Shown here piece by piece: positions 20,350 to 30,794 of a stretch of DNA of 64,000 nucleotides (the stretch's first letter is position 1; every line of letters begins with the position of its first letter). Position numbers and translations under genes: made by a program. The DNA is from Jiangella muralis. Its GTDB lineage: Bacteria > Actinomycetota > Actinomycetes > Jiangellales > Jiangellaceae. The stretch covers positions 4,121 through 68,120 of the forward strand of contig NZ_KQ434760.1 in assembly GCF_001270745.1 (NCBI RefSeq), given 5' to 3'. Below the pieces are notes generated by a model. The model saw only the letters and a list, made by a program, of their open reading frames with translations, was not told the DNA's origin and searched no databases.

Positions 20350-20949
20350 GTGTCCAGTGCCGTCGTCGGGTTCGCCACGTCCCTCTCGCTGATCGTCGCG
20401 ATCGGCGCCCAGAACGCGTTCGTCCTGCGCCAGGGCCTCGCCCGCCGGCACGTCGTCCCCGTCGTCGCGGTGTGCGCGGTGGCGGACGCGGCGCTGATCG
20501 GCGCCGGGATCGCCGGGCTCGGCGCCGCGTTGACGACGCACCCATGGGCGCTGGACGTGGCCCGCTACGGCGGGGCGGCGTTCGTGCTCGGGTACGGCGC
20601 GCTGGCGGCGCGGCGGGCGCTACGGCCGTCGGCGCTGGTCGCCGGGGCGGGAGCGGCGGCGACGGCGCGGGCGGCGGTGCTCGCCTGCCTCGGCTTCACC
20701 TTCCTCAACCCGCACGTGTACCTCGACACCGTCGTGCTGCTCGGCGCGCTGGCCAACCAGCACGGCGACGACGGCCGCTGGCTGTACGGAGCGGGCGCCA
20801 TGGCGGCGTCGCTGAGCTGGTTCACCGCGCTCGGGTTCGGCGCCCGGTCGCTCAGCGCGGTGTTCGAGCGGCCGGGCGCCTGGCGGGTGCTGGACGGCCT
20901 GATCGCCGTCGTCATGCTCGCGATCGGTACCCGCCTGCTGATTGGGTGA
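20350..20949 (+). CDS. lysE: LysE/ArgO family amino acid exporter
   Basis: A 199-residue membrane protein with about six hydrophobic segments. The N-terminal region [18 protein letters not shown] and [19 protein letters not shown] are LysE/ArgO signatures. It exports basic amino acids when lysine or arginine pools rise, under control of the divergent LysG. I chose GTG 20350 because a minus-10 sits 7 nt upstream and the first helix follows directly; ATG 20320 is in frame. Its 3' end overlaps the SARP gene by 38 bp. Confidence 0.9.
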
Positions 20950-21637
20950 GCAGCGACTCGATCGCCTCCGACGGGTCGAGGCCCAGCTCGTCGGCCAGCA
21001 GCCGCCGGTACTCGCCCAGCTGGTGCGAGGCGACCGACCGGTTGCCCTCGGCCAGGTGGGCGCGGATCAACGCGCACCACGCCGACTCCCGCAGCGGCTC
21101 GGCCGCGATCGCCCGGTACGCCACGTCGATGGCCGCGCCGAACCGGCCCGCCGTGGTGAGGCGGCGGCTGAGCGCCTCGAGGGCGTGGATGCGCAGCTGA
21201 CGGTGCCGCTCGCGCTCCAGCTGCAGCCACTCCTCGTCCCAGCCGGGGAGGATGTCGTCGGTGAGCAGGTCGGCCGAGTCCGGCAACCGGTCGCGGCCGG
21301 CCGGGTCGAGCAGGACGCGCGCGAGCCCCGCGCTCTCAGCGAGGTCGACCCGGACCGACGGCCGCAGCTGGAGCTCGTCGCGGCCGCTGTGCACCAGGCC
21401 GGCCGGGAGCTGGCCGATCCGCCACAGCGCCGTGCGCAACCTCGCCCGCGCCTGCGCCTGCGGCACCCAGCCCCAGAGCTGGCCCGTCACCGCGTCGCGG
21501 CGCTGCGCACCGCCGTTGACGGCGAGGTAGGCCAGCAGCCGCCGCGGGCTGGTGGGCAGCGCGACCGGGACCCCGGCGACGAGGACCTCGAAGGCCCCGA
21601 TGACGTGGAGGTCAGCCATCTGTTCCACCGCAGCCAT
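20912..21637 (-). CDS. SARP/BTAD-type transcriptional regulator
   Basis: A 241-residue regulator. Residues ~10-95 are an OmpR-like winged helix ([20 protein letters not shown]) and ~100-235 a bacterial transcriptional activator domain ([20 protein letters not shown]). This is the short SARP architecture without an NB-ARC ATPase domain. SARPs commonly activate secondary-metabolite or other specialised gene clusters. It lies 102 bp downstream of, and on the same strand as, the five-gene unknown operon and may regulate it (inference). ATG 21637 has GGGGGG upstream; ATG 21619 is also possible. Confidence 0.87.
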
Positions 21638-21739
21638 ATCGACACCCCCCGGTTGGCCGGACCCACGCGATGGCTCGCGGGTCCGGCCTAGTCAATGTTG
21701 TACTCGCATGATCGCGACTCGCCTAGGGTGTGCCGGCGC

Positions 21740-23257
21740 CTACTCCAGGAAGTCCTCCGCGTAGCAGCTGTAGATGCTCGCCTGGTCCTTCAACCGGTCG
21801 ATGATCCACGCGTTGAACTGCTTGAACGCCTTCGGCAGCGCCAGCAGCCCCAGTCCCCACTCGGCGCCGGAGGCGTAGGCGATGATCTGGCTCATCTTCA
21901 CGATCCCGCCGGCGATGTCCTCGTCGAGCAGCCGCAGGTTGGTGGTGAGCCGGTCCTCGGGCACCTGCGGGCCGAACAGGTCCGGATGCAGCAGCCGGCT
22001 CAGGACGCGGCTCCACTCCTCGGCCCTGGGCATCTCGTTGTCGCGCTTGATGAGGAACACCTGGGTGTCGGTGGCGAACCGGTCGTCCATGCCGGGCTGC
22101 TTGATCTTCTCCAGCACGCAGCTCAGACGCTTGGCCGCCTCCGGTGTCAGCGTGGGCAGCAGCGGGGTGACCCGCACGATCACCTCGTCCAGCACGAGCG
22201 GGTCCGGCGGTGGCGTGTAGTCGCGGTACACGGTGATCTCGACCCGGCGGTTCAGGGTGTGCAGGCGGGTCGAGAACGGCCGGTCCTCGCCGTAGCTCTC
22301 GATGACGTATTCGATCCGCTCCACCGTCCCGACGGGCAGCCGGCCGGCCTGCTGGGCGACCAGCTCCTTGAGCCGGGCGGCCACCGCCTGGGCCCGGCGG
22401 CGGCCGAGGTCGAGGTTGTAGGCACGGGTGCCGACGGGGTCGGTGTGGCCCTGCGCGACGATCTTCGTCACGATGCGCCGCGAGTACCAGCTGCGGACGA
22501 TCTCGCGCGCCAGCGAGGCGATCAGCCGCTCGTGCTCCTCGGTCAGCGTGGCCTTCGCGAACGGGAACCCGCGTAGCGACCGCTGGTCCACCGGCGCCAC
22601 GACCGCCCCGACGGTCCGCGGCAGCAGCGCGTACACGACCAGCTTGTAGGTGGCCGCCTGGTCAGCCGTCAGCTGCGTGGACAGCCCGGCCGCCGCGGCC
22701 AGTGAGCCGGGCGCGAGCTCCAGCGCCTCCTCCAGCCAGCGGTTCAGCGTCCACGGCCCGACCGAGACGGCATCGAACGGCGGCACCTTCGACGGGTGCG
22801 CCTTCTGGCAGAAGCGGTGGAACGCCCGGAGCTTGTCCTGCTCGACGACGTCGAACGGCACCGTCTCGACGACCAGGACGTGCACGGTGCTGCTGGGCCC
22901 GGCCTTGGGCAGGTCCGGCAGGTCGACCAGCAGGCGGTCGCCCCAGCCCGGCTCCGCGCCCACGTTCGCCCGTGCCCCCGAGATCATCCACAGGATCCGT
23001 TCGGTCCGCACCGTCACCTCGGCGCTCACCAGCGGCTTGGCCCGCAGCACGTCGGGCAGCTCGGCGAGCGCCTCGGGCGGGAAGGTGCGGGTGAGCCGCG
23101 ACAGGGCCGGCGCGGCCTGCTCCTCGAAGGCCGGCTCGCCCGGCGCCTCCTCGTAGAGGTGCCCCCACGACTCCTGCGCCTCGGCCGGCTCGGGCGCCGC
23201 CTCGGCCGGCGCGAACGGCGACTCCAGGAGGGCGGTGGTGAGCGGTTCGCTCGTCAT
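21740..23257 (-). CDS. OmpA-like-domain protein with acidic SPF N-terminal tail
   Basis: A 505-residue protein, last of the five-gene operon. Residues 1-50 are disordered and acidic, with SPF at 13-15. Residues ~235-345 match the OmpA/MotB peptidoglycan-binding fold: GHTDPVGTRAYNLDLGRRRA (from 270) and NRRVEITVY (336-344). The rest is unrecognised. There is no signal peptide or membrane segment, so how the domain would reach peptidoglycan is unclear. The start is set by GGAGG 5 nt before ATG 23257. Its translation-initiation region is identical over 13 nt to that of the 26370-28568 gene, which also carries the SPF tail. Confidence 0.8.
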   Translation of the reverse strand: MTSEPLTTALLESPFAPAEAAPEPAEAQESWGHLYEEAPGEPAFEEQAAPALSRLTRTFPPEALAELPDVLRAKPLVSAEVTVRTERILWMISGARANVGAEPGWGDRLLVDLPDLPKAGPSSTVHVLVVETVPFDVVEQDKLRAFHRFCQKAHPSKVPPFDAVSVGPWTLNRWLEEALELAPGSLAAAAGLSTQLTADQAATYKLVVYALLPRTVGAVVAPVDQRSLRGFPFAKATLTEEHERLIASLAREIVRSWYSRRIVTKIVAQGHTDPVGTRAYNLDLGRRRAQAVAARLKELVAQQAGRLPVGTVERIEYVIESYGEDRPFSTRLHTLNRRVEITVYRDYTPPPDPLVLDEVIVRVTPLLPTLTPEAAKRLSCVLEKIKQPGMDDRFATDTQVFLIKRDNEMPRAEEWSRVLSRLLHPDLFGPQVPEDRLTTNLRLLDEDIAGGIVKMSQIIAYASGAEWGLGLLALPKAFKQFNAWIIDRLKDQASIYSCYAEDFLE

Positions 23258-23270
23258 GACGACCTCCGTC

Positions 23271-24560
23271 TCAGCCGCGGCCGTTGGTGGCGGCGACGGT
23301 GGGCGGCGGCGACGGCACGGGCGGCGGTGCTGCGGGGATGCGCAACGGCTGGGCGCTCAGGCTCCCGGCCACGCCGCCGACGGGCCGGTCCTTCACCCGG
23401 TCCCCGGTCGCGGACTGCCACAGGTCGATGATCCGGTTCATGTCCTGCAGCAGCTGGGCGTTCACGCCGCCGGCCAGCGGCACGTAGAGGGTCTCCGCCT
23501 TCTCGCCGGTGTCGAACGCGCCCAGCTCGATCGCCCGCAGCATCGCCGACATCAGGTCGGCCAGCTCGAACAGCTCGCGCGATCGCGCGGCCGGCTGCAT
23601 GCCGACCCGCTGGGCGATCTTCGCCAGCCGGTCCGCGGCGCTGGTCGCGTCGGCCCGCAGGTCGACCACGATCGGCGTGTCCGGAGTCTCGAGCGTCAGG
23701 TGGAACCAGCTCATCGTCGTGACGTACACGAACTCCTCGCGAGCGAGCTGGCCGCCGCGACGGCGCATGGTCATCATGTCCTTGAGCGCGCTGCACAGGA
23801 ACGCCACGTACTCCTTGTCGGTGGCGTTCGGGCCGCTCTCGTTGCGGGCGTTCTCGATGCCGAGCCACACCTGCCGCAGCAGTTCGGTCCACTTCTCCCG
23901 GAACCCGGTGTTGACGCCGCTGCCGGTGTCGGACTTCCAGTCCTGCTCGCCGGCCGACCCGGGCCGGGCCCAGCGGGCCGGGATCGGATGCGGCAGGTCC
24001 ATGCCGAACATCCGCCACATGCAGTTGCGCCGGTTGACCCGGTCGTCCGGCCGCACGCTGCTGGTGACGCCGCCGATGGAGAACAGCGGCGGGTCGCGGA
24101 AGAACAGCTCCTCGGTGGCCCGCAGCCAGCGCAGCCCGCCGGCGGAGAGCGTGTCCAGGGTCTCGCCGGTGACCAGGCGGCGGACCACCTCTGCCAGCAC
24201 CTCGAACACCCCGGTCGACTCCACGAGGTACGCGTAGGCCGCGTGGTCCCACGCCAGCCCGCTGGCCTGCAGTCGCAGCGGCTGGCCGCCGAAGACGTCG
24301 GGATCGGCCAGCACCACACCGGACGGCGCGACCTCGGCGCCGCCGATCACCTGGGGCCGGGGCAGGTTCAGCGTCTCCACGACGTCGGCGGCGCCGAGGA
24401 ACGGTTCGAGGGTGGACGGGTCGCCGAACGCGGGCACCGTCCGGGCGCTGTCCCATGCCTCGTCGAGCCAGCGGCTGAGCTGGATCGGGTGGACGAGGAA
24501 CACGTCCCGGCGGTCGCGGCCGGGTGTTGCGGCGAACAGCTGGGCAAGGTTTCTGAACAT
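23271..24560 (-). CDS. conserved-looking protein of unknown function
   Basis: A 429-residue protein without a recognised domain, signal peptide or membrane segment. Distinctive blocks are HPIQLSRWLDEAW near residue 24, LRWLRATEELFFRD and NRRNCMWRMFGMDLPHPIP in the middle, then a helical second half. The C-terminal ~25 residues are Pro/Ala-rich. It lies 13 bp upstream of the OmpA-like gene and 22 bp downstream of the 168-residue gene. The Trp-rich middle and good codon use argue for a real, structured protein. No function is proposed. Confidence 0.75.
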   Translation of the reverse strand: MFRNLAQLFAATPGRDRRDVFLVHPIQLSRWLDEAWDSARTVPAFGDPSTLEPFLGAADVVETLNLPRPQVIGGAEVAPSGVVLADPDVFGGQPLRLQASGLAWDHAAYAYLVESTGVFEVLAEVVRRLVTGETLDTLSAGGLRWLRATEELFFRDPPLFSIGGVTSSVRPDDRVNRRNCMWRMFGMDLPHPIPARWARPGSAGEQDWKSDTGSGVNTGFREKWTELLRQVWLGIENARNESGPNATDKEYVAFLCSALKDMMTMRRRGGQLAREEFVYVTTMSWFHLTLETPDTPIVVDLRADATSAADRLAKIAQRVGMQPAARSRELFELADLMSAMLRAIELGAFDTGEKAETLYVPLAGGVNAQLLQDMNRIIDLWQSATGDRVKDRPVGGVAGSLSAQPLRIPAAPPPVPSPPPTVAATNGRG

Positions 24561-24582
24561 GTCGTGGGCCCCCTTCGGCAGG

Positions 24583-25089
24583 TCAATCGACCGGGGTCTG
24601 GGCCGGCAGCCGCGGCAGCCGGGGTCCCAGCCGGATGGGCTGGCCGGCGCCGTTCCACACCTCGAGCCGCGCGATGTCCTTGCCGCGGGTGCGGTCCAGC
24701 GTGACGGTTCCGGAGGAGCCGGAACCGCGGTCGATGCCGAGCAGTTCCGGCTCCTCCTCGCCGGCGGCCTGCACGGCTACCCGGGCCGCCGTCGCCGGGA
24801 GCGGCTCCAGCTCGACCCGCTCCCGGTCCTTGTCCTGGAACCGCCGCGCGCTCACCAGGACACCGCCCGGCGCGAGCCGGCCGGTCAGGGCGCCGAGCAC
24901 TCGATAGTCGAGGGCGGTGCGCCGCTGGGCCACGGAGGCCGGTCGATCCCCGTCGCCGCGACGCCGGTCATCGTGCAGCTCGGTGGTGTGCTGGGTGATC
25001 GCGGTGGCGACGTCGTGCAGCGCCGTCACGAACTCGCGCAGCGTCGCCTCGGACGGCAGGCCGCCGTCCGGTGGGCGGTCAGCGGACAT
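24583..25089 (-). CDS. protein of unknown function in the SPF/OmpA-like operon
   Basis: A 168-residue protein with no recognised motif. Residues ~13-60 look helical (REFVTALHDVATAITQHTTE) and the remainder is beta-rich (GTVTLDRTRGKDIARLEVWN). It has no signal peptide. GGAGGAG lies about 6 nt before ATG 25089, and the gene sits 22 bp from each neighbour, so it is a solid member of the operon. An adaptor-like role is only a guess from its small size. Confidence 0.7.
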   Translation of the reverse strand: MSADRPPDGGLPSEATLREFVTALHDVATAITQHTTELHDDRRRGDGDRPASVAQRRTALDYRVLGALTGRLAPGGVLVSARRFQDKDRERVELEPLPATAARVAVQAAGEEEPELLGIDRGSGSSGTVTLDRTRGKDIARLEVWNGAGQPIRLGPRLPRLPAQTPVD

Positions 25090-25111
25090 GTCGATCTCCT
25101 CCTCCAGTGGG

Positions 25112-26377
25112 TCAGGCGGCCCGCGCGGGCGCCCCGGGCGAGAGCCGGGCCAGCCAGTCGAGCAGGTCCCGGCGATGGGCCGGACCGTTCACCGGGTCCG
25201 TGACCGGCCTGATCGCCAGCCACGCCAGCACCGCCAGCGGTTCCCGGCGGGCGAGGTACTGCGAGGTCAGCAGCGACGGCCCGGCCCGGCGGGCCAGGGC
25301 GTCGAGCGCGTCCGGCGACCGGCGGGCCGGGTCGGCGACGGCGGACAGCGGCCGGCCGCCGAACGCGGCCATCGGCTGCCGGGTGCAGACCCGGACGATG
25401 TCGTCGAGCGCGTCCACGCTCAGCCGGGCCAGGCCGGCCGTCTCGGACGGCGCCCGTTCCGGCGGGTGGCGGCGCGCCCAGGCGACGGCCAGGACGTCCC
25501 ACGGCCCGGCGCCGAACCAGCTCCGGCACAGGGCGGCGTTGACGATCACCCGGATCCACGGGAACGGGTGCGGATCGCCGTGAACCGCCTGGTAGACCGC
25601 CGCGGTGTCGCCGTCGACCACGTTGGCCAGCGCCGGCAGCGGCGCCCAGCCGGCCTGGGCGAACGCGTGGACGTCGGCCGCCAGCTCGCTCGCCCACGCC
25701 CGCCACGCCTCGGCCAGCTCGCGGGACCGGGGCGCCAGCGCGACCGCGAGGGCGTCGGCCAGCTCCGCGTTCCAGCCGGTCAGGTGGCCGACCTGATGGC
25801 CGCATTCGTGCAGGATGGCGGTCGGGTAGCTGAGGTTGTGCCGGGTGAGCTTGATCGCCGCGACGGGCGACGGGCTGGTGCGGTCCCAGAGCCGGACGTC
25901 CGCACGCAGGATCGCCGCTCCCAGGCCCTTGTCGACGTAGACGACGGCCGGCGGCGCCGCGATGCCGACCCGGCCGAGGATCACGTCGAGGCTGTCGCCG
26001 GCGATCACGTCCAGTCCGCTCAGCACGGCGGCGAGCGCCGGGTTGGTGCGCGAGCCGACCGCGTCGCCGTAGAAGTCGAGGATGGTCTCGACCTGCAGGT
26101 AGCGGCGGCGCAGCGCGAGCACGCTACGGCGCACCGCGACGGTGTCGTCGCCGCGGGTCAAGGCGGTCGAACAGTGCGCCGCCTCCAGTGAGAGGTCCGC
26201 GACGACGGCGGCGAGCCGGTCGCGTACCCGCATGCGCAGGTACTCCTCCAGACCCGCCCAGGCGGCGGGCGCGGCGATGGTGTCCAGGTCGGCCAGCGCG
26301 TCGACGGCGTGCCGCCAGTGCGCGATCTCCGCCGCCAGCTGCACGCGCTCGGGCTCGGCCGGGTCCGGCTCAGCCAT
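25112..26377 (-). CDS. putative HExxH zinc metalloprotease-like protein
   Basis: A 421-residue protein. Residues 190-198 read HECGHQVGH, a HExxH zinc motif with a further His, and Glu231 in SELAADVHAF is a credible third ligand in the E-x-x-A-D context of gluzincins. The motif is preceded by NLSYPTAIL, the usual helix entry. No signal peptide is seen, so it would act in the cytoplasm or on a partner. I cannot place it in a named peptidase family. The start overlaps the preceding gene's stop (ATGGCTGA, 8 bp), indicating tight coupling to that large SPF protein, a possible substrate (inference). Confidence 0.75.
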   Translation of the reverse strand: MAEPDPAEPERVQLAAEIAHWRHAVDALADLDTIAAPAAWAGLEEYLRMRVRDRLAAVVADLSLEAAHCSTALTRGDDTVAVRRSVLALRRRYLQVETILDFYGDAVGSRTNPALAAVLSGLDVIAGDSLDVILGRVGIAAPPAVVYVDKGLGAAILRADVRLWDRTSPSPVAAIKLTRHNLSYPTAILHECGHQVGHLTGWNAELADALAVALAPRSRELAEAWRAWASELAADVHAFAQAGWAPLPALANVVDGDTAAVYQAVHGDPHPFPWIRVIVNAALCRSWFGAGPWDVLAVAWARRHPPERAPSETAGLARLSVDALDDIVRVCTRQPMAAFGGRPLSAVADPARRSPDALDALARRAGPSLLTSQYLARREPLAVLAWLAIRPVTDPVNGPAHRRDLLDWLARLSPGAPARAA

Positions 26378-28568
26378 GGCGCAGTCCCGGGCGGATCGCG
26401 AGCACGGGCGTTCCGGGCGTTCCGGCCGCGAGCGCGTCTCGGCCGGCGAACGGGAACGTGAACGTCAGGGTCAGCCCGGCGGCCGGGTCCTGGGCGGCGC
26501 CCGCCAGCGTCGGACCGGCGGCCGGCAGCTCCTTGGCCAGCGCGGTGATCATCCCCTCCGCCAGCGCCTCCGCCAGCGCGCGGCGGCGCTCGGGCGGCAT
26601 GGGGCGCGGCGCGTTCAGGGCGCGGGACCGGCCCAGCCGCTGCGTCAGCCAGTCCCGGGCCGGCGGACCCAGCAGCCGCCGGACGGCCGCGATGACCTGG
26701 GTGTGCGCCCGGCGGTCCAGCTGCGCGGCCAGCGTGTGCGCCATCCGTTCGCCGATCCGCAGGTGCACCCGCAGCCGCGGTGCCGGGCCGGACAGGTCGA
26801 CGCGGACGGCCAGCCGCCGCACCCGCCGGGCGTGCCCGGGCCGTCCGGGGACGACGACGCGGAACAGCCGCTGCCCCGGCGCGGCGGGAACCCGGGCGCC
26901 GGTACGGGAGCCGGCGGCGCCGAGCGCCGGGCGCCGCAGCAGCGCACCCGCCACCTGCGGCGTCAGCTCGCCGAACTCGTCCGGCGACAGCGTGCCGTCC
27001 TCGTCGGCTGCGGCCAGGTGCCCGCGCCGGGTGCCCGGCATCGCCTCGAACAGGTGCACCTCCACCTCGGCCGGCCAGCTGCCGACGCCGTCGTCGAGCA
27101 GCCGCTCCTCGAGCGTCTCCTCGCCGCTGACGACGATCGCCCGGGCCGTGGGGCGGCTGAGCAGCACCCGGTACGGGTGGCTGTACGCGCGGTAGCGGTA
27201 GCGCGGGCGCGGGCCGCGCGGCATCATGATCCACCCGCCGGCCTCGGTCTCGCCCTCGTCCTCCCCCAGGTCCGCCCGGAGCACCCGCGGCGGCAGGTAC
27301 CGGGCGGCCGCCTCGGCGAACGCCTCCTGGACCTCGGCCGCGACGCGGACGTCGTCGGCCAGCGACTCCGCCGGCAGCGAGAGCACCTGCCGCACCGTCT
27401 CCTCCAGCGTCGACACCAGCGCCTCCGCCCCGAGCACCGCGGCCTCCTCGTGCTCCAGGCGCAGCAGCCGCAGCCCGGTGTCCGCGATCGGCGGGGCCAG
27501 CGACTTCGCCGCCTGCCGGCCGACGAACGGCGCGATGAACGTGGCCAGCGGCCCGGCCAGCAGCCGCTTCACGCGGTCCCGCCCGATCAGCCGGACCGCC
27601 GTGCGGACCAGGGGCATCGCGGCCGTGACGGCGGGGATGAACTGCTCCACCGGCGCCACCGGCGCCTCGCCCGGCGTCGCGTCGGCCAACTCGGCGGCCA
27701 GCCGGGCCCGCGCGGCGTCGAGGTCGGCGACCGGGTCCTCACCGGCCGCCCGGCCGGCGTCGGCGGCGGAGAGCAGGAGCTCCTCGGCCGCCGCCTCGTC
27801 GGTGACGGTGAGCGCCTGCGCGTACTGGCGGTCGAAGTCCTCCGCGACTTCCCGGCCGGTCTCCGGGGCGCGGATGCCGAGCTTGGCCGCCAGCGCGGCA
27901 GCCGGACCCTGCAGCGACGCCGGCAGCCGGTTGCGTGCGGCGTTGAGCACCCGCTTGACCAGCGGCTCGACCAGCTTCTTGAGGATGCCCGTCAGCTGGC
28001 CCAGGCCGGTGATGCTGCCCAGCACGCCCAGGCCGGTTCGTGCCACCGCCGTGGCGGCGGTCTTGACCTTCGCGAAGCCGCTCTTCACCTTGGCGACCAG
28101 GCCGCCCAGGAACTGCTCGGCGGCCGGGCTCATCGGGTCGGTCCGCGCCTGCGCCGCGGCGAGCTCGATCTCGTCCTCGGCCACCGACTCCGGGGTGCGG
28201 CCGGCGAACGTCTCCTCGAGATGGTCGAGCACCCGCCGTGCCTCGTCGAGCAGCCGGGCCGACCACGCCTCCAGCTGGGCGTCCCGGCCGTCCGCCTCAC
28301 CCTCCGACGACGTGGTCAGGTGCACGGCCGCGGCCTCGTCGACCAGCGCCTCGACGGCGTCGTCGAACGCCTCGTCCTCCAGCTCGGCGAGCAGGTCCTC
28401 GAACAGCTCGCCGTCGTCGCCGGCCGCTTCGAGCCGGCTGGTCGAGAACGGGGAGAGCAGTCCGGGCAGCGTCAGCTCGGCCGCGCCGGGCTCGGCCGGT
28501 GGCCCGGGCGGCCGCTCGGCCTGCAACGCGCTGCCGACGAAGGGCGACACCATGGCGGGCGTGTTCAT
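26370..28568 (-). CDS. large SPF-tailed protein with basic amphipathic segment, unknown function
   Basis: A 732-residue protein, first large gene of the operon. The N-terminus has two SPF motifs (8-10 and 39-41) in a Pro/acidic context, then an acidic helix (GELFEDLLAELEDEAFDDAV). Residues ~153-232 are a basic amphipathic, Gly-rich stretch (GILKKLVEPLVKRVLNAARN) that could bind membranes or pack as a coiled bundle. The remainder, ~235-732, is unrecognised, with Arg-rich beta-like regions near the C-terminus. No signal peptide is seen. GGAGG precedes ATG 28568 by 6 nt. Two proteins of one operon sharing the SPF tail suggests a common targeting or assembly tag. Confidence 0.75.
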   Translation of the reverse strand: MNTPAMVSPFVGSALQAERPPGPPAEPGAAELTLPGLLSPFSTSRLEAAGDDGELFEDLLAELEDEAFDDAVEALVDEAAAVHLTTSSEGEADGRDAQLEAWSARLLDEARRVLDHLEETFAGRTPESVAEDEIELAAAQARTDPMSPAAEQFLGGLVAKVKSGFAKVKTAATAVARTGLGVLGSITGLGQLTGILKKLVEPLVKRVLNAARNRLPASLQGPAAALAAKLGIRAPETGREVAEDFDRQYAQALTVTDEAAAEELLLSAADAGRAAGEDPVADLDAARARLAAELADATPGEAPVAPVEQFIPAVTAAMPLVRTAVRLIGRDRVKRLLAGPLATFIAPFVGRQAAKSLAPPIADTGLRLLRLEHEEAAVLGAEALVSTLEETVRQVLSLPAESLADDVRVAAEVQEAFAEAAARYLPPRVLRADLGEDEGETEAGGWIMMPRGPRPRYRYRAYSHPYRVLLSRPTARAIVVSGEETLEERLLDDGVGSWPAEVEVHLFEAMPGTRRGHLAAADEDGTLSPDEFGELTPQVAGALLRRPALGAAGSRTGARVPAAPGQRLFRVVVPGRPGHARRVRRLAVRVDLSGPAPRLRVHLRIGERMAHTLAAQLDRRAHTQVIAAVRRLLGPPARDWLTQRLGRSRALNAPRPMPPERRRALAEALAEGMITALAKELPAAGPTLAGAAQDPAAGLTLTFTFPFAGRDALAAGTPGTPVLAIRPGLRHG

Positions 28569-28586
28569 GACGACCTCCAGGGACGA

Positions 28587-28604
28587 CTACGGGAGGGACC
28601 GTAG
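28587..28604. repeat. 6-bp inverted repeat upstream of the SPF operon
   Basis: CTACGG (28587-28592) and CCGTAG (28599-28604) are separated by 6 nt, in the 58-bp gap before the 732-residue gene. It could be a small operator or an mRNA hairpin. Confidence 0.3.
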
Positions 28605-28626
28605 GCGGCGCCCGTGTGCGTGATCG

Positions 28627-28845
28627 TCACCGTGGCGTCTCCGGCCCGTCTCGGCTGTCGTCATCGGGCCCGGGGTCGAGCGCCAGCAGCGCGGTCAGCC
28701 AGTGGCCCAGCTGCTCGCCGGCCGCCGCCGCGGAGCCGCGCACCAGGCGGCCCTCGACGTCGCCGGTCGCCAGCATCCGTACCTTCAGGTCATCGCCGTC
28801 CACCCAGCAGCGGACGACGACCACACACCAACGCGGACGGGGCAT
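28627..28845 (-). CDS. small hypothetical protein upstream of the SPF operon
   Basis: A 72-residue protein. Residues 5-50 look like a folded alpha/beta unit (VRCWVDGDDLKVRMLATGD), and the C-terminus is acidic. It is on the same strand as the five-gene operon, 58 bp before it, and follows the response regulator gene by 75 bp. No Shine-Dalgarno is evident, which lowers confidence. No motif is recognised. Confidence 0.5.
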   Translation of the reverse strand: MPRPRWCVVVVRCWVDGDDLKVRMLATGDVEGRLVRGSAAAAGEQLGHWLTALLALDPGPDDDSRDGPETPR

Positions 28846-28920: not shown

Positions 28921-29601
28921 TCAGGCCGGCGGGCGGGCGCTGACCAGGCCGGTCTGGTAGGCGATGACGACGAGCTGGGCGCGGTCACGGGCGCCGAGCT
29001 TGATCATCGCGCGGCTGACGTGGGTCTTGGCGGTCGCCGGGCTGAGCGACAGTTCGGCGCCGATCTCGGCGTTGGACCGGCCGGTGCCGACGAGGGCGAG
29101 CACCTCGCGCTCGCGCTGGGTGAGCACGCCGAGGCGATCCTCGGCCACCTGGTACGCCGTCCGGGCCGCGGTGAACTGGGCGATCAGCCGCCGGGTGATC
29201 TTGGGGGCGAGCAGCGCCTCGCCGGCGGCGACGACGCGGATGGCGTGCAGCAGCTCCTGTGGCCCGGCGTCCTTGAGGAGGAACCCGCTGGCGCCGGCCT
29301 CGAGCGCGTCGAACACGTACTCCTCGGTGTCGTACGTCGTGAGGATCAGCACCTTCACCCGGTCCAGCCCGGGGATGGCGGCAATGCGGCGGGTCGCCTC
29401 GATGCCGTCGAGGCCGGGCATGCGGATGTCCATCAGCACGACGTCGGGACGGGACTCGCGGCAGCGCTCGATCGCCTCGGCGCCGTCGGCCGCCTCGCCG
29501 ACGACGTCGATGTCCTCTTCGACGTCGAGGAGGACGCGGAAGCCGGTGCGCACGAGCACCTGGTCGTCGGCGAGGACGACGCGGACGGTGGCGGACGTCA
29601 T
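28921..29601 (-). CDS. NarL/LuxR family response regulator
   Basis: A 226-residue response regulator. The receiver domain has the acidic pocket ADDQ (11-14), phospho-acceptor Asp58 in VVLMDIRMPG and Lys in LLKDAG. The C-terminal GerE-type helix-turn-helix starts LTQREREVLALVGTGRSNAE. Its start overlaps the kinase stop by 4 bp (ATGA). The pair reads directly towards the SPF operon on the same strand, and the MMPL transporter is divergent, so either could be its target. Confidence 0.93.
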   Translation of the reverse strand: MTSATVRVVLADDQVLVRTGFRVLLDVEEDIDVVGEAADGAEAIERCRESRPDVVLMDIRMPGLDGIEATRRIAAIPGLDRVKVLILTTYDTEEYVFDALEAGASGFLLKDAGPQELLHAIRVVAAGEALLAPKITRRLIAQFTAARTAYQVAEDRLGVLTQREREVLALVGTGRSNAEIGAELSLSPATAKTHVSRAMIKLGARDRAQLVVIAYQTGLVSARPPA

Positions 29602-30794
29602 CGGGCGGCGACCTCGACGCTGTTCAGCGGCAGCCGGGCGCACACCTTGAAGCCGTCGCCGTCGGGGCCGGCCTCGAACGTCCCGCCGAGCAGCTCGCAC
29701 CGTTCCCGCATGCCGGCCAGCCCGCGGCCCGGCTCGACCGGCGGGCCGGGCGGGGCGCTCAACTCGCCGCCGTCGTCGGCGATCGAGACGCGCAGTTCGC
29801 CGCCGCCCAGCTCGAGGCCGACGGCGACGCGGGCCGGCCCGGCGTGCCGGATGACGTTGGTGATGCCCTCCTGGACGATGCGGTAGGCGGCGCGGTCGAC
29901 GTCGTCGGGGACGACCCCGGCGGGCACCGCCCCCGTCACCGTGACGTCCAGGCCGGCCCGCCGCCCGACGGCGACCAGCTCGTCCAGCGCGCCCAGGCTC
30001 GGCCCGGGCGAGCCGTCGTCGTCGCCGCGCAGCACGCCGAGGACGGAGCGCATCTCGCGCAGCGCCCGGGCGCTGGTCTGCTCGATCGTCAGCAGCGTCT
30101 CGCGAGCCCGCTCCGGCCGCTTGTCCAGCACGTGCGCCGTCACCCCGGCCTGCACGTTGATGATCGCGATGGCGTGCGCGACGGTGTCGTGCACCTCGCG
30201 GGCGATGCGCAGCCGCTCGGCGTCGACGCGGCGGCGGGCCTCCTCCTCGCGGGTCCGCTCGGCCACCTCGGCCCGCTGGACGGCGTCGGTGGCGATGACG
30301 CGGCGGGAGCGGACCGACTCGCCCAGCGCGGCGGCCATGATGGTGGCGCCGATGCGGAACGCCAGCCAGCCGATGCCCTCGCCGCCGGTGTCGGCCGTGG
30401 CGATCCAGACGACGGCCAGCACCGTGAGTCCGTTCGCGACGACGACCAGCGAGCGCCGCCCGTCGCCGTGCGCCGTCACCGTGTAGATGGCCACGAACAG
30501 CGACAGCCAGCCGGGGCCGTCGGGGAACCCGGAACCGAAGTAGGCGACGCTGACCAGGCCGGTCACGATGAAGACGGGGATCGGCCAGCGCCGCCGCACC
30601 AGCAGGACCAGGCCGCTGAGCATGAGCAGCGCGTTGCCGGGGATGCCGAGCGCCTCGGCCGGCCCGCCCAGCTCGGGCTCGCGCTCGATGGCCGAATGCG
30701 TGCCCTGCACCTGCAGCAACGTGACGAAGCCGGCGATCAGCACGTCCTGGGTGCGCGCCGACAACGTCGGGAGGCGCTGTACCAACCGCTCCAT
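29598..30794 (-). CDS. two-component sensor histidine kinase (HisKA_3 type)
   Basis: A 398-residue membrane kinase. About four or five hydrophobic segments lie in residues 15-160 with only short loops, so it probably senses a membrane signal. The phospho-accepting His202 is in RIAREVHDTVAHA. The HATPase region has NVIRHAG and a GRGLAGMRER glycine loop. ATG 30794 is 7 nt after TACGAT on the minus strand, suggesting a leaderless transcript; an upstream in-frame codon would overlap that element. It forms an operon with the response regulator. Confidence 0.92.
   Translation of the reverse strand: MERLVQRLPTLSARTQDVLIAGFVTLLQVQGTHSAIEREPELGGPAEALGIPGNALLMLSGLVLLVRRRWPIPVFIVTGLVSVAYFGSGFPDGPGWLSLFVAIYTVTAHGDGRRSLVVVANGLTVLAVVWIATADTGGEGIGWLAFRIGATIMAAALGESVRSRRVIATDAVQRAEVAERTREEEARRRVDAERLRIAREVHDTVAHAIAIINVQAGVTAHVLDKRPERARETLLTIEQTSARALREMRSVLGVLRGDDDGSPGPSLGALDELVAVGRRAGLDVTVTGAVPAGVVPDDVDRAAYRIVQEGITNVIRHAGPARVAVGLELGGGELRVSIADDGGELSAPPGPPVEPGRGLAGMRERCELLGGTFEAGPDGDGFKVCARLPLNSVEVAAR

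Follow-up and report, generated by a model that had tools for sequence, protein, structure and literature searches.

The window analysed here, 64,000 nucleotides of Jiangella muralis DNA (NCBI RefSeq assembly GCF_001270745.1, contig NZ_KQ434760.1, positions 4,121 to 68,120), carries a compact operon of five genes. Three of them, called P7, P6 and P4 below, form a core that is conserved in distant bacteria and in archaea, and the last encodes an exchangeable protein, referred to as the cargo. The host genome (G000 in our numbering, in which G denotes genomes and L loci) is 7.27 Mb in size with a completeness of 100 and belongs to the genus Jiangella. An earlier note, made from the letters of the DNA, had described the operon, and the coordinates bear out its positions, strand and spacings. 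All the genes are open on the minus strand; from P7 to the cargo gene there is an 8-bp overlap followed by gaps of 22, 22 and 13 bp. The OmpA-like domain that the note had recognised in the cargo scores 35.5 bits against a Pfam cut-off of 27.2, the SARP gene does encode a BTAD domain and the HExxH protein is P6. One description has to be corrected. The two proteins called SPF-tailed carry their SPF motifs near the N-terminus, twice in P7 and once in the cargo, and not at the C-terminus (Table 1).

It is clear that the operon is real and that it is one conserved unit, beyond what chance would produce. Relatives were sought with a P6 alignment as the sole query and one genome per species, which gave at least 77 loci from ten phyla: nine represented in the P6 tree plus a Nitrospinaceae bin (L082). 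Methanosarcina is included. This is a lower bound, and the species scan relies on two peptide patterns. Because the query was P6 only, P7 and P4 at these loci are independent finds. In a six-frame search of the 77 loci, the window and a further Jiangella locus (G009; n = 79), P7, P6 and P4 lie collinear on one strand in 78, and the contig of the remaining one (L108) stops after P6. The loci counted had also served to refine the P7 and P4 profiles, and gene starts were assigned by rule. Another indication of unity comes from 393 genomes of the class. The P4 profile matches eight of these, and P6 reaches at least 568 bits in those same eight; six more have distant P6 relatives (82-158 bits), and a further three have marginal ones. 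P7 is present in 5/12 Jiangella genomes, as four near-identical loci and the divergent one in G009. There, P7, P6 and P4 are 33-47% identical to those of the window and the regulator 39%; the gene order matches, but the final gene encodes a different protein, with a VanY domain. Between the window and the Jiangella genome G010, the ratio of nonsynonymous to synonymous substitution rates (dN/dS) is 0.12-0.25 for six genes. Could these simply be unrelated neighbours, clustered by chance and without a joint function? That the core proteins have no known function is compatible with this, but the same order in 78/79 loci from ten phyla and the restriction of P4, among the 393 genomes, to those with a strong P6 leave the idea practically negligible. 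Two loci may hold broken or misassembled copies, since their core genes were called as fragments: P7 is split in two in L066, and in L107 P7 comes in three parts and P6 in two.

Searches of libraries gave little to name these proteins by. P4, P5, P6 and P7 have nothing significant in Pfam, NCBIfam or PHROG and no match to the PADLOC models, in which the OmpA part of the cargo resembles ZorB/MotB (E 1.7e-5). The best E-values against PDB sequence profiles are 0.15 (P6), 0.99 (P4) and 0.029 (P7), none of them significant. Literature searches, which did not extend to preprints and most subscription journals, listed no paper describing a P7-P6-P4 cluster. The term 'SPF motif' is absent from the papers listed in the search for the motif, and 'spf' occurs 0 times in the available text of PMC3482391. 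The prediction that these genes belong together has held up in the co-occurrence survey, and the opposite outcome raised in the earlier note, five proteins of known and unrelated families that do not co-occur, is not what was found.

Table 1. Genes and motifs of the operon and its surroundings (positions in the window; residues are those of the protein named)
Feature	Position	Strand	Basis or remark
P7, 732-aa core protein, two N-terminal SPF motifs	26370..28568	-	no significant family
P7 first SPF motif, residues 8-10	28539..28547	-	sequence
P7 second SPF motif, residues 39-41	28446..28454	-	sequence, relatives
P7 cationic amphipathic stretch, residues 148-230	27879..28127	-	
P6, 421-aa core protein with HExxH, metallopeptidase-like by motif	25112..26377	-	
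P6 HECGH, residues 190-194	25796..25810	-	
P5, 168-aa small protein, poorly conserved sequence	24583..25089	-	between P6 and P4
P4, 429-aa core protein, mostly helical	23271..24560	-	
Cargo gene, 505 aa, N-terminal LLESPF, OmpA domain at residues 231-329	21740..23257	-	
Cargo SPF motif, residues 13-15	23213..23221	-	sequence
Cargo OmpA domain	22271..22567	-	Pfam
SARP-like (BTAD) regulator	20912..21637	-	BTAD, E 7.5e-18
P8, 72-aa small gene upstream of P7	28627..28845	-	
Response regulator and kinase genes, directly upstream of operon	28921-30794		

The cargo was defined as the first same-strand gene of at least 140 amino acids within 400 bp after P4. A gene meeting this rule is present in 66 of 78 loci (L033 excluded); four more were missed by the gene caller (L038, L066, L086, L090) and in another four the region is cut off at the contig end (L043, L083, L106, L108). 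Pfam was run on 53 first downstream genes, that of the window included. A peptidoglycan-hydrolase domain lies above the cut-off in 28 (VanY/M15, NlpC/P60, M23, glucosaminidase, SLT or phage lysozyme), and 38 have a hydrolase, peptidoglycan-binding or OmpA domain. Other types seen are tyrosinase, trypsin-like, phospholipase, PhoD and PLD. Five cargos are tyrosinases (L088, L089, L091, L094, L105), and the next gene at each locus encodes one of a set of related membrane proteins; the one in L088 matches the PpoB2 copper-chaperone family and similar genes are found at the other four. Loci whose P6 is ~60-70% identical to that of the window give six different Pfam verdicts for the cargo: OmpA, NlpC/P60, peptidoglycan-binding, DUF4056, a sub-threshold lysozyme-like match and a sub-threshold amidase. 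As far as domain annotation goes, such differences are proof that the cargo is exchanged. The Pfam domains, together with the BLAST comparisons given below, make the OmpA-like protein one version of an exchangeable cargo and not a fixed structural part. In L097, the first gene after P4 (L097:12956-14080) is SIR2-like and untagged, and is maybe an unrelated neighbour or another kind of partner.

The cargos share a motif with P7. The pattern [ED][STA]PF occurs within the first 60 residues of 27/66 cargos and 32/74 P7 proteins, and in 0/75 P4, 0/75 P6 and 0/689 other genes of the loci. For plain SPF the corresponding values are 29/66 cargos, 49/74 P7 and 3/689 other genes. Left out of these counts, and of the pairwise and control counts, are L033, which is nearly identical to G005, and the duplicates L014, L015 and L030-L032. 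In cargos the motif density is 4.7 per 1000 over the first 100 residues and falls to 0.02 further on, and in P7 and many cargos two copies lie ~25-40 residues apart. The contrast between cargos or P7 and the other genes is large, even though post hoc patterns and kinship of the loci mean that the computed P-values are no literal measure, and the motif is best described as an N-terminal tag common to P7 and many cargos. It is joined to an acidic region, the first 100 residues of cargos being 22% acidic compared with 12.5% in controls. Cargos thereby have the feature of polymorphic toxins in which a constant N-terminal part precedes a variable C-terminal enzyme.

What might the core proteins do? 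Alignments of P7, P6 and P4 were built from loci with an intact called gene. Of the second SPF motif of P7, residues P40 and F41 are conserved in 90% or more of 61 relatives. All 61 have a cationic stretch in alignment with residues 148-230 (net charge +9 to +43 with a median of +14, compared with a control median of -1), and its helical hydrophobic moment is above the 95th percentile of the controls, again in 61/61. The window's own stretch is at the low end (net charge +10, moment 0.34). This region may bind a membrane or the acidic linkers of cargos, or may be part of a helical bundle. In P6, the HExxH motif is invariant in 54/54 aligned relatives (H190, E191, H194), as are Q195, E231, D235 and H270. 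Gluzincin-type zinc metallopeptidases combine HExxH with a downstream glutamate ligand. Both features are present in P6, whose invariant residues we take to be the pattern of a zinc metallopeptidase with the features of the gluzincin-type class. E231 is a putative zinc ligand and P6, metallopeptidase-like by motif, a predicted protease. AlphaFold2 (AF2) models have a mean predicted local distance difference test (pLDDT) score of 86.1 for P4, which is predicted to be helical, and 82.6 for P7, in which residues 1-48 are mostly of low confidence. Foldseek found nothing at E <= 0.001 in the PDB (best 1.3 for P4 and 0.74 for P7), and for P7 the best value among viral models was 0.48. The best VIA-align hits are at chance level for helical models: Z 6.2 for P4 (TIPE3, 4q9v_B, 117 residues, root-mean-square deviation (rmsd) 4.1) and Z 5.9 for P7 (8qzc_A, 117 residues, rmsd 4.9). 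The whole-chain models of P4 and P7 thus point neither to a fold already known nor to a novel one. The position of P5, between P6 and P4, is occupied by a same-strand gene in 56/64 loci.

The next question is how the products leave the cell. By a crude hydrophobicity rule applied to N-termini, signal-like sequences occur in 0/64 P7, 0/64 P6, 1/64 P4, 1/56 P5 and 1/64 cargos, compared with 181/734 controls. For P7, P6 and P4 this is not above the accidental rate of the rule. One explanation would be that the operon supplies the cargo, and the factors that load it, of a known secretion system (contractile injection or other) whose genes lie elsewhere in the genome. Extracellular contractile injection systems (eCIS) have cytosolic-looking effectors encoded at the cluster end and a wide, transfer-driven distribution. 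The operon resembles them in both respects, and its spread over phyla is similar. However, contractile sheath family PF04984, the one sheath or secretion family searched genome-wide, has no match in the host genome, and it is found in 1/5 operon-bearing Jiangella genomes, away from the operon, and in 2/7 operon-free ones. A contractile system acting in trans was rejected because no sheath association is seen across these 12 genomes. Phage-type families are also absent from the 25 commonest neighbour families, and the phyla that have the core differ widely in their secretion systems. On balance, dependence on such a system is very unlikely, and the word self-contained, used when the operon was first described, agrees with the PF04984 search.

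The closest parallel is with the polymorphic toxins delivered by Photorhabdus virulence cassette (PVC)-type systems. According to a 2012 survey, the PVC system delivers OmpA and glucosaminidase domains and many PVC-type toxin loci have no immunity gene (Zhang et al., 2012; PMC3482391), and both points speak for a cargo of another system. There are further likenesses: a constant N-terminal part with exchangeable enzymes (peptidases among them), a metallopeptidase in the system and a patchy distribution in bacteria and archaea (PMC3482391). In contrast, the constant part here is a short SPF-type tag with an acidic linker, whereas theirs is a metallopeptidase domain inside the toxin. The HExxH protein of the operon is a separate gene product without a DUF4157 match; indeed, no DUF4157-type domain was found by Pfam in the window's cargo, in P6 or in the families printed for the 53 downstream proteins. 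PVC-type systems have phage-derived genes, whereas library scans (Pfam, NCBIfam, PHROG) matched no AAA+ ATPase or phage-tail gene, nor any phage-derived one, to the operon proteins, and the three core families have no significant library match. By the features tested, the P7-P6-P4 core does not belong to the PVC type.

Our favoured reading is that the operon represents a module, widespread and passed on horizontally, by which exchangeable, mostly peptidoglycan-directed enzymes are deployed against other cells. We give it a probability of roughly 0.45. P7, P6, P4 and usually a variable P5 would be made without export signals, and the last gene would supply the cargo, with its SPF-type tag and acidic linker, alongside a P7 that has a like tag, usually twice. 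Tag and P7 would recruit the cargo to a P7/P4 complex, while the cationic amphipathic stretch of P7 might contact a membrane or the acidic linker. P6 would cleave the linker or P7, maturing or freeing the enzyme. The complex might be set free when part of the producer cells lyse, or leave by another export route, in response to the neighbouring SARP-like regulator, and the freed enzyme would open the wall of a competitor. The fuller version of this proposal, an undescribed non-contractile deployment system of bacteria and archaea with a P7/P4 complex, loading by SPF tag, maturation by P6 and archaea that attack bacterial walls, is put forward more tentatively and falls somewhat short of an even chance. 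A delivery complex with its own protease had been suggested as a possibility in the earlier note, and this idea is supported in part. The conserved unit, the lack of a PF04984 sheath in the host genome and the invariant HExxH favour it; the OmpA-like protein would not be a fixed part of such a complex.

Several observations weigh against deployment of tagged enzymes. As many as 27/66 cargos are without a PF motif in the first 100 residues, and those of Micrococcaceae, Nocardia and Rhodococcus have a WPxxxDVF-like motif instead, noticed only post hoc. The motif patterns (four tried, at two lengths) were themselves chosen after the sequences had been seen, and related loci are not independent. 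Four loci have the core without a credible cargo (L064, L071, L074, L075), and the first downstream genes of L067 and L097 look unrelated. Of the 53 cargos run through Pfam, 15 have no peptidoglycan-related domain above the cut-off: DUF4056 (two), trypsin (three), DUF2272 alone (one), SIR2-like (one, probably not a cargo), sub-threshold matches (four) and no Pfam match at all (four). The sub-threshold matches are to lysin, OmpA or peptidoglycan-binding domains, and one of these four proteins is a tyrosinase. The cationic stretch of P7 could belong to a soluble helical bundle, and transmembrane-like segments (19-mers), found in 23/64 P7 and 253/734 controls, are not commoner in P7. Loss of BLAST similarity is a further case. 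Of 337 locus pairs with 50-60% P6 identity, BLAST recovers P4 in 337, P7 in 328 and the cargo beyond residue 100 in only 27; for the 287 pairs at 60-80% the values are 287, 285 and 118. This loss alone does not prove exchange, since P5 similarity drops as fast (46/262 pairs at 60-80% and 2/276 at 50-60%). The P5 figures also mean that this small gene is conserved very little. Lastly, there is no recurring immunity gene among the 25 commonest of 143 neighbour families, a partial list.

That last observation would fit programmed lysis of the producer, in which P7 acts like a holin from inside and the cargo like an endolysin on the cell's own wall, releasing products or sacrificing the cell. The cytosolic-looking enzymes, the lysin-type domains of many cargos and the cationic amphipathic stretch of P7 are also as expected. 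As in phage holin-endolysin modules, export signals are missing from proteins with lysin-type domains (VanY/M15, lysozyme, NlpC/P60, glucosaminidase, SLT). However, P6 has 0 matches in 50,697 phage records and no relative in an IMG/VR pattern scan, so that the core is unmatched in both, and non-lysin cargos exist here: tyrosinase, trypsin-like, PhoD and PLD enzymes are not wall-lytic. P7 is not enriched in transmembrane-like segments, as noted. Another objection comes from Methanosarcina, which is not known to make peptidoglycan. P6 is found in 3/30 Methanosarcina genomes, and in three species the operon is in the same neighbourhood (L058, L147, L148). The L058 operon has a guanine-plus-cytosine content of 49.5%, compared with 39.8% and 42.6% in its flanks. 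A gene 3 kb away occurs in 19/20 Methanosarcina genomes, and this is therefore an archaeal locus and no stray contig. Its cargo has SLT, DUF2272 and peptidoglycan-binding domains; against those of the two other species its ends align and residues ~215-722 do not. Because such a cargo would have no peptidoglycan to act on at home, it argues for a foreign target there. Producer lysis is accordingly rated an unlikely alternative to deployment against other cells.

Archaeal enzymes of this kind have a precedent. In the main text of a study of modular archaeal peptidoglycan hydrolases, these act only on bacteria; a known signal peptide is reported for 67/210 homologues, how the others are exported being left open, and Methanosarcina has 0 occurrences (PMC12352652). 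The Methanosarcina cargo is like them in being a modular archaeal hydrolase able to act only on bacteria; a difference is that the hydrolases of the present system come with a tag and with partner genes that form a conserved core.

Perhaps the system instead builds or maintains the cell's own envelope, with the tag directing such enzymes to the wall or to sites of growth. OmpA and peptidoglycan-binding domains do occur together with hydrolases (the 38/53 cargos above), but the distribution is patchy (5/12 Jiangella, 8/393 class and 3/30 Methanosarcina genomes), the catalytic domains are exchanged, signal-like N-termini are lacking and the operon is found in an archaeon not known to make peptidoglycan. 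A role in the producer's own envelope is thus quite unlikely. The remaining probability belongs to functions outside the favoured reading and the rivals discussed.

Horizontal movement is part of the favoured reading. In a tree of 73 P6 proteins, 13/14 Pseudomonadota fall inside a 24-row clade with 11 Actinomycetota (support 100/100). SARP/BTAD-type regulators are typical of actinobacteria, and they are also found beside the operon in Pseudomonadota (most of L095-L104, L106, L108, L109 and L092). The nesting of P6 and the SARP-like genes alongside suggest that the operon moved between phyla.

We regard the gene system as new in kind, because its three core families are in no library searched and its parts are unlike those of known delivery systems; the theme of a constant part with a variable enzyme is already known. 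Should the favoured reading hold, the operon would represent an additional system for delivery or release, with a core in no curated family, a spread over ten phyla and a short, simple cargo tag, and would provide a list of tagged lysins and other enzymes. It would also be one answer to how wall-cutting enzymes without signals, archaeal ones included, reach bacterial walls, a matter raised in the main text of PMC12352652. Core and tagged exchangeable enzyme may be an undescribed use of enzymes against other microbes. Even if the function differs, three conserved families in obligate partnership can be tested as a unit.

The surroundings of the operon are less constant. Among 143 of 156 listed neighbouring proteins (13 dropped), BTAD regulators (29/143) are the sole widely recurring family of the 25 commonest, and a relative of the SARP-like regulator lies within 5.5 kb of P6 in 53/79 loci. 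A kinase and response regulator pair had been reported to precede the operon; it does adjoin it in close Jiangella loci (L014, L015, L016, L033), not generally, and as it is kept only there it was rejected as a part of the system. Open reading frames related to P8 accompany the operon in close Jiangella loci; L038, L041 and L047 have weakly related ones. Carriage by phages or plasmids was also considered and rejected. No phage match was found, and five plasmid records have only distant P6 relatives (29-31% identity), of a sister type without a P4 match in the four examined. These plasmid relatives (L113-L116) and those of class genomes (L135-L140) lie in differently built clusters, again with no P4 match, and adjoin acidic proteins with FLGGL-like motifs and glycine-rich amphipathic stretches. 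They may be sister systems.

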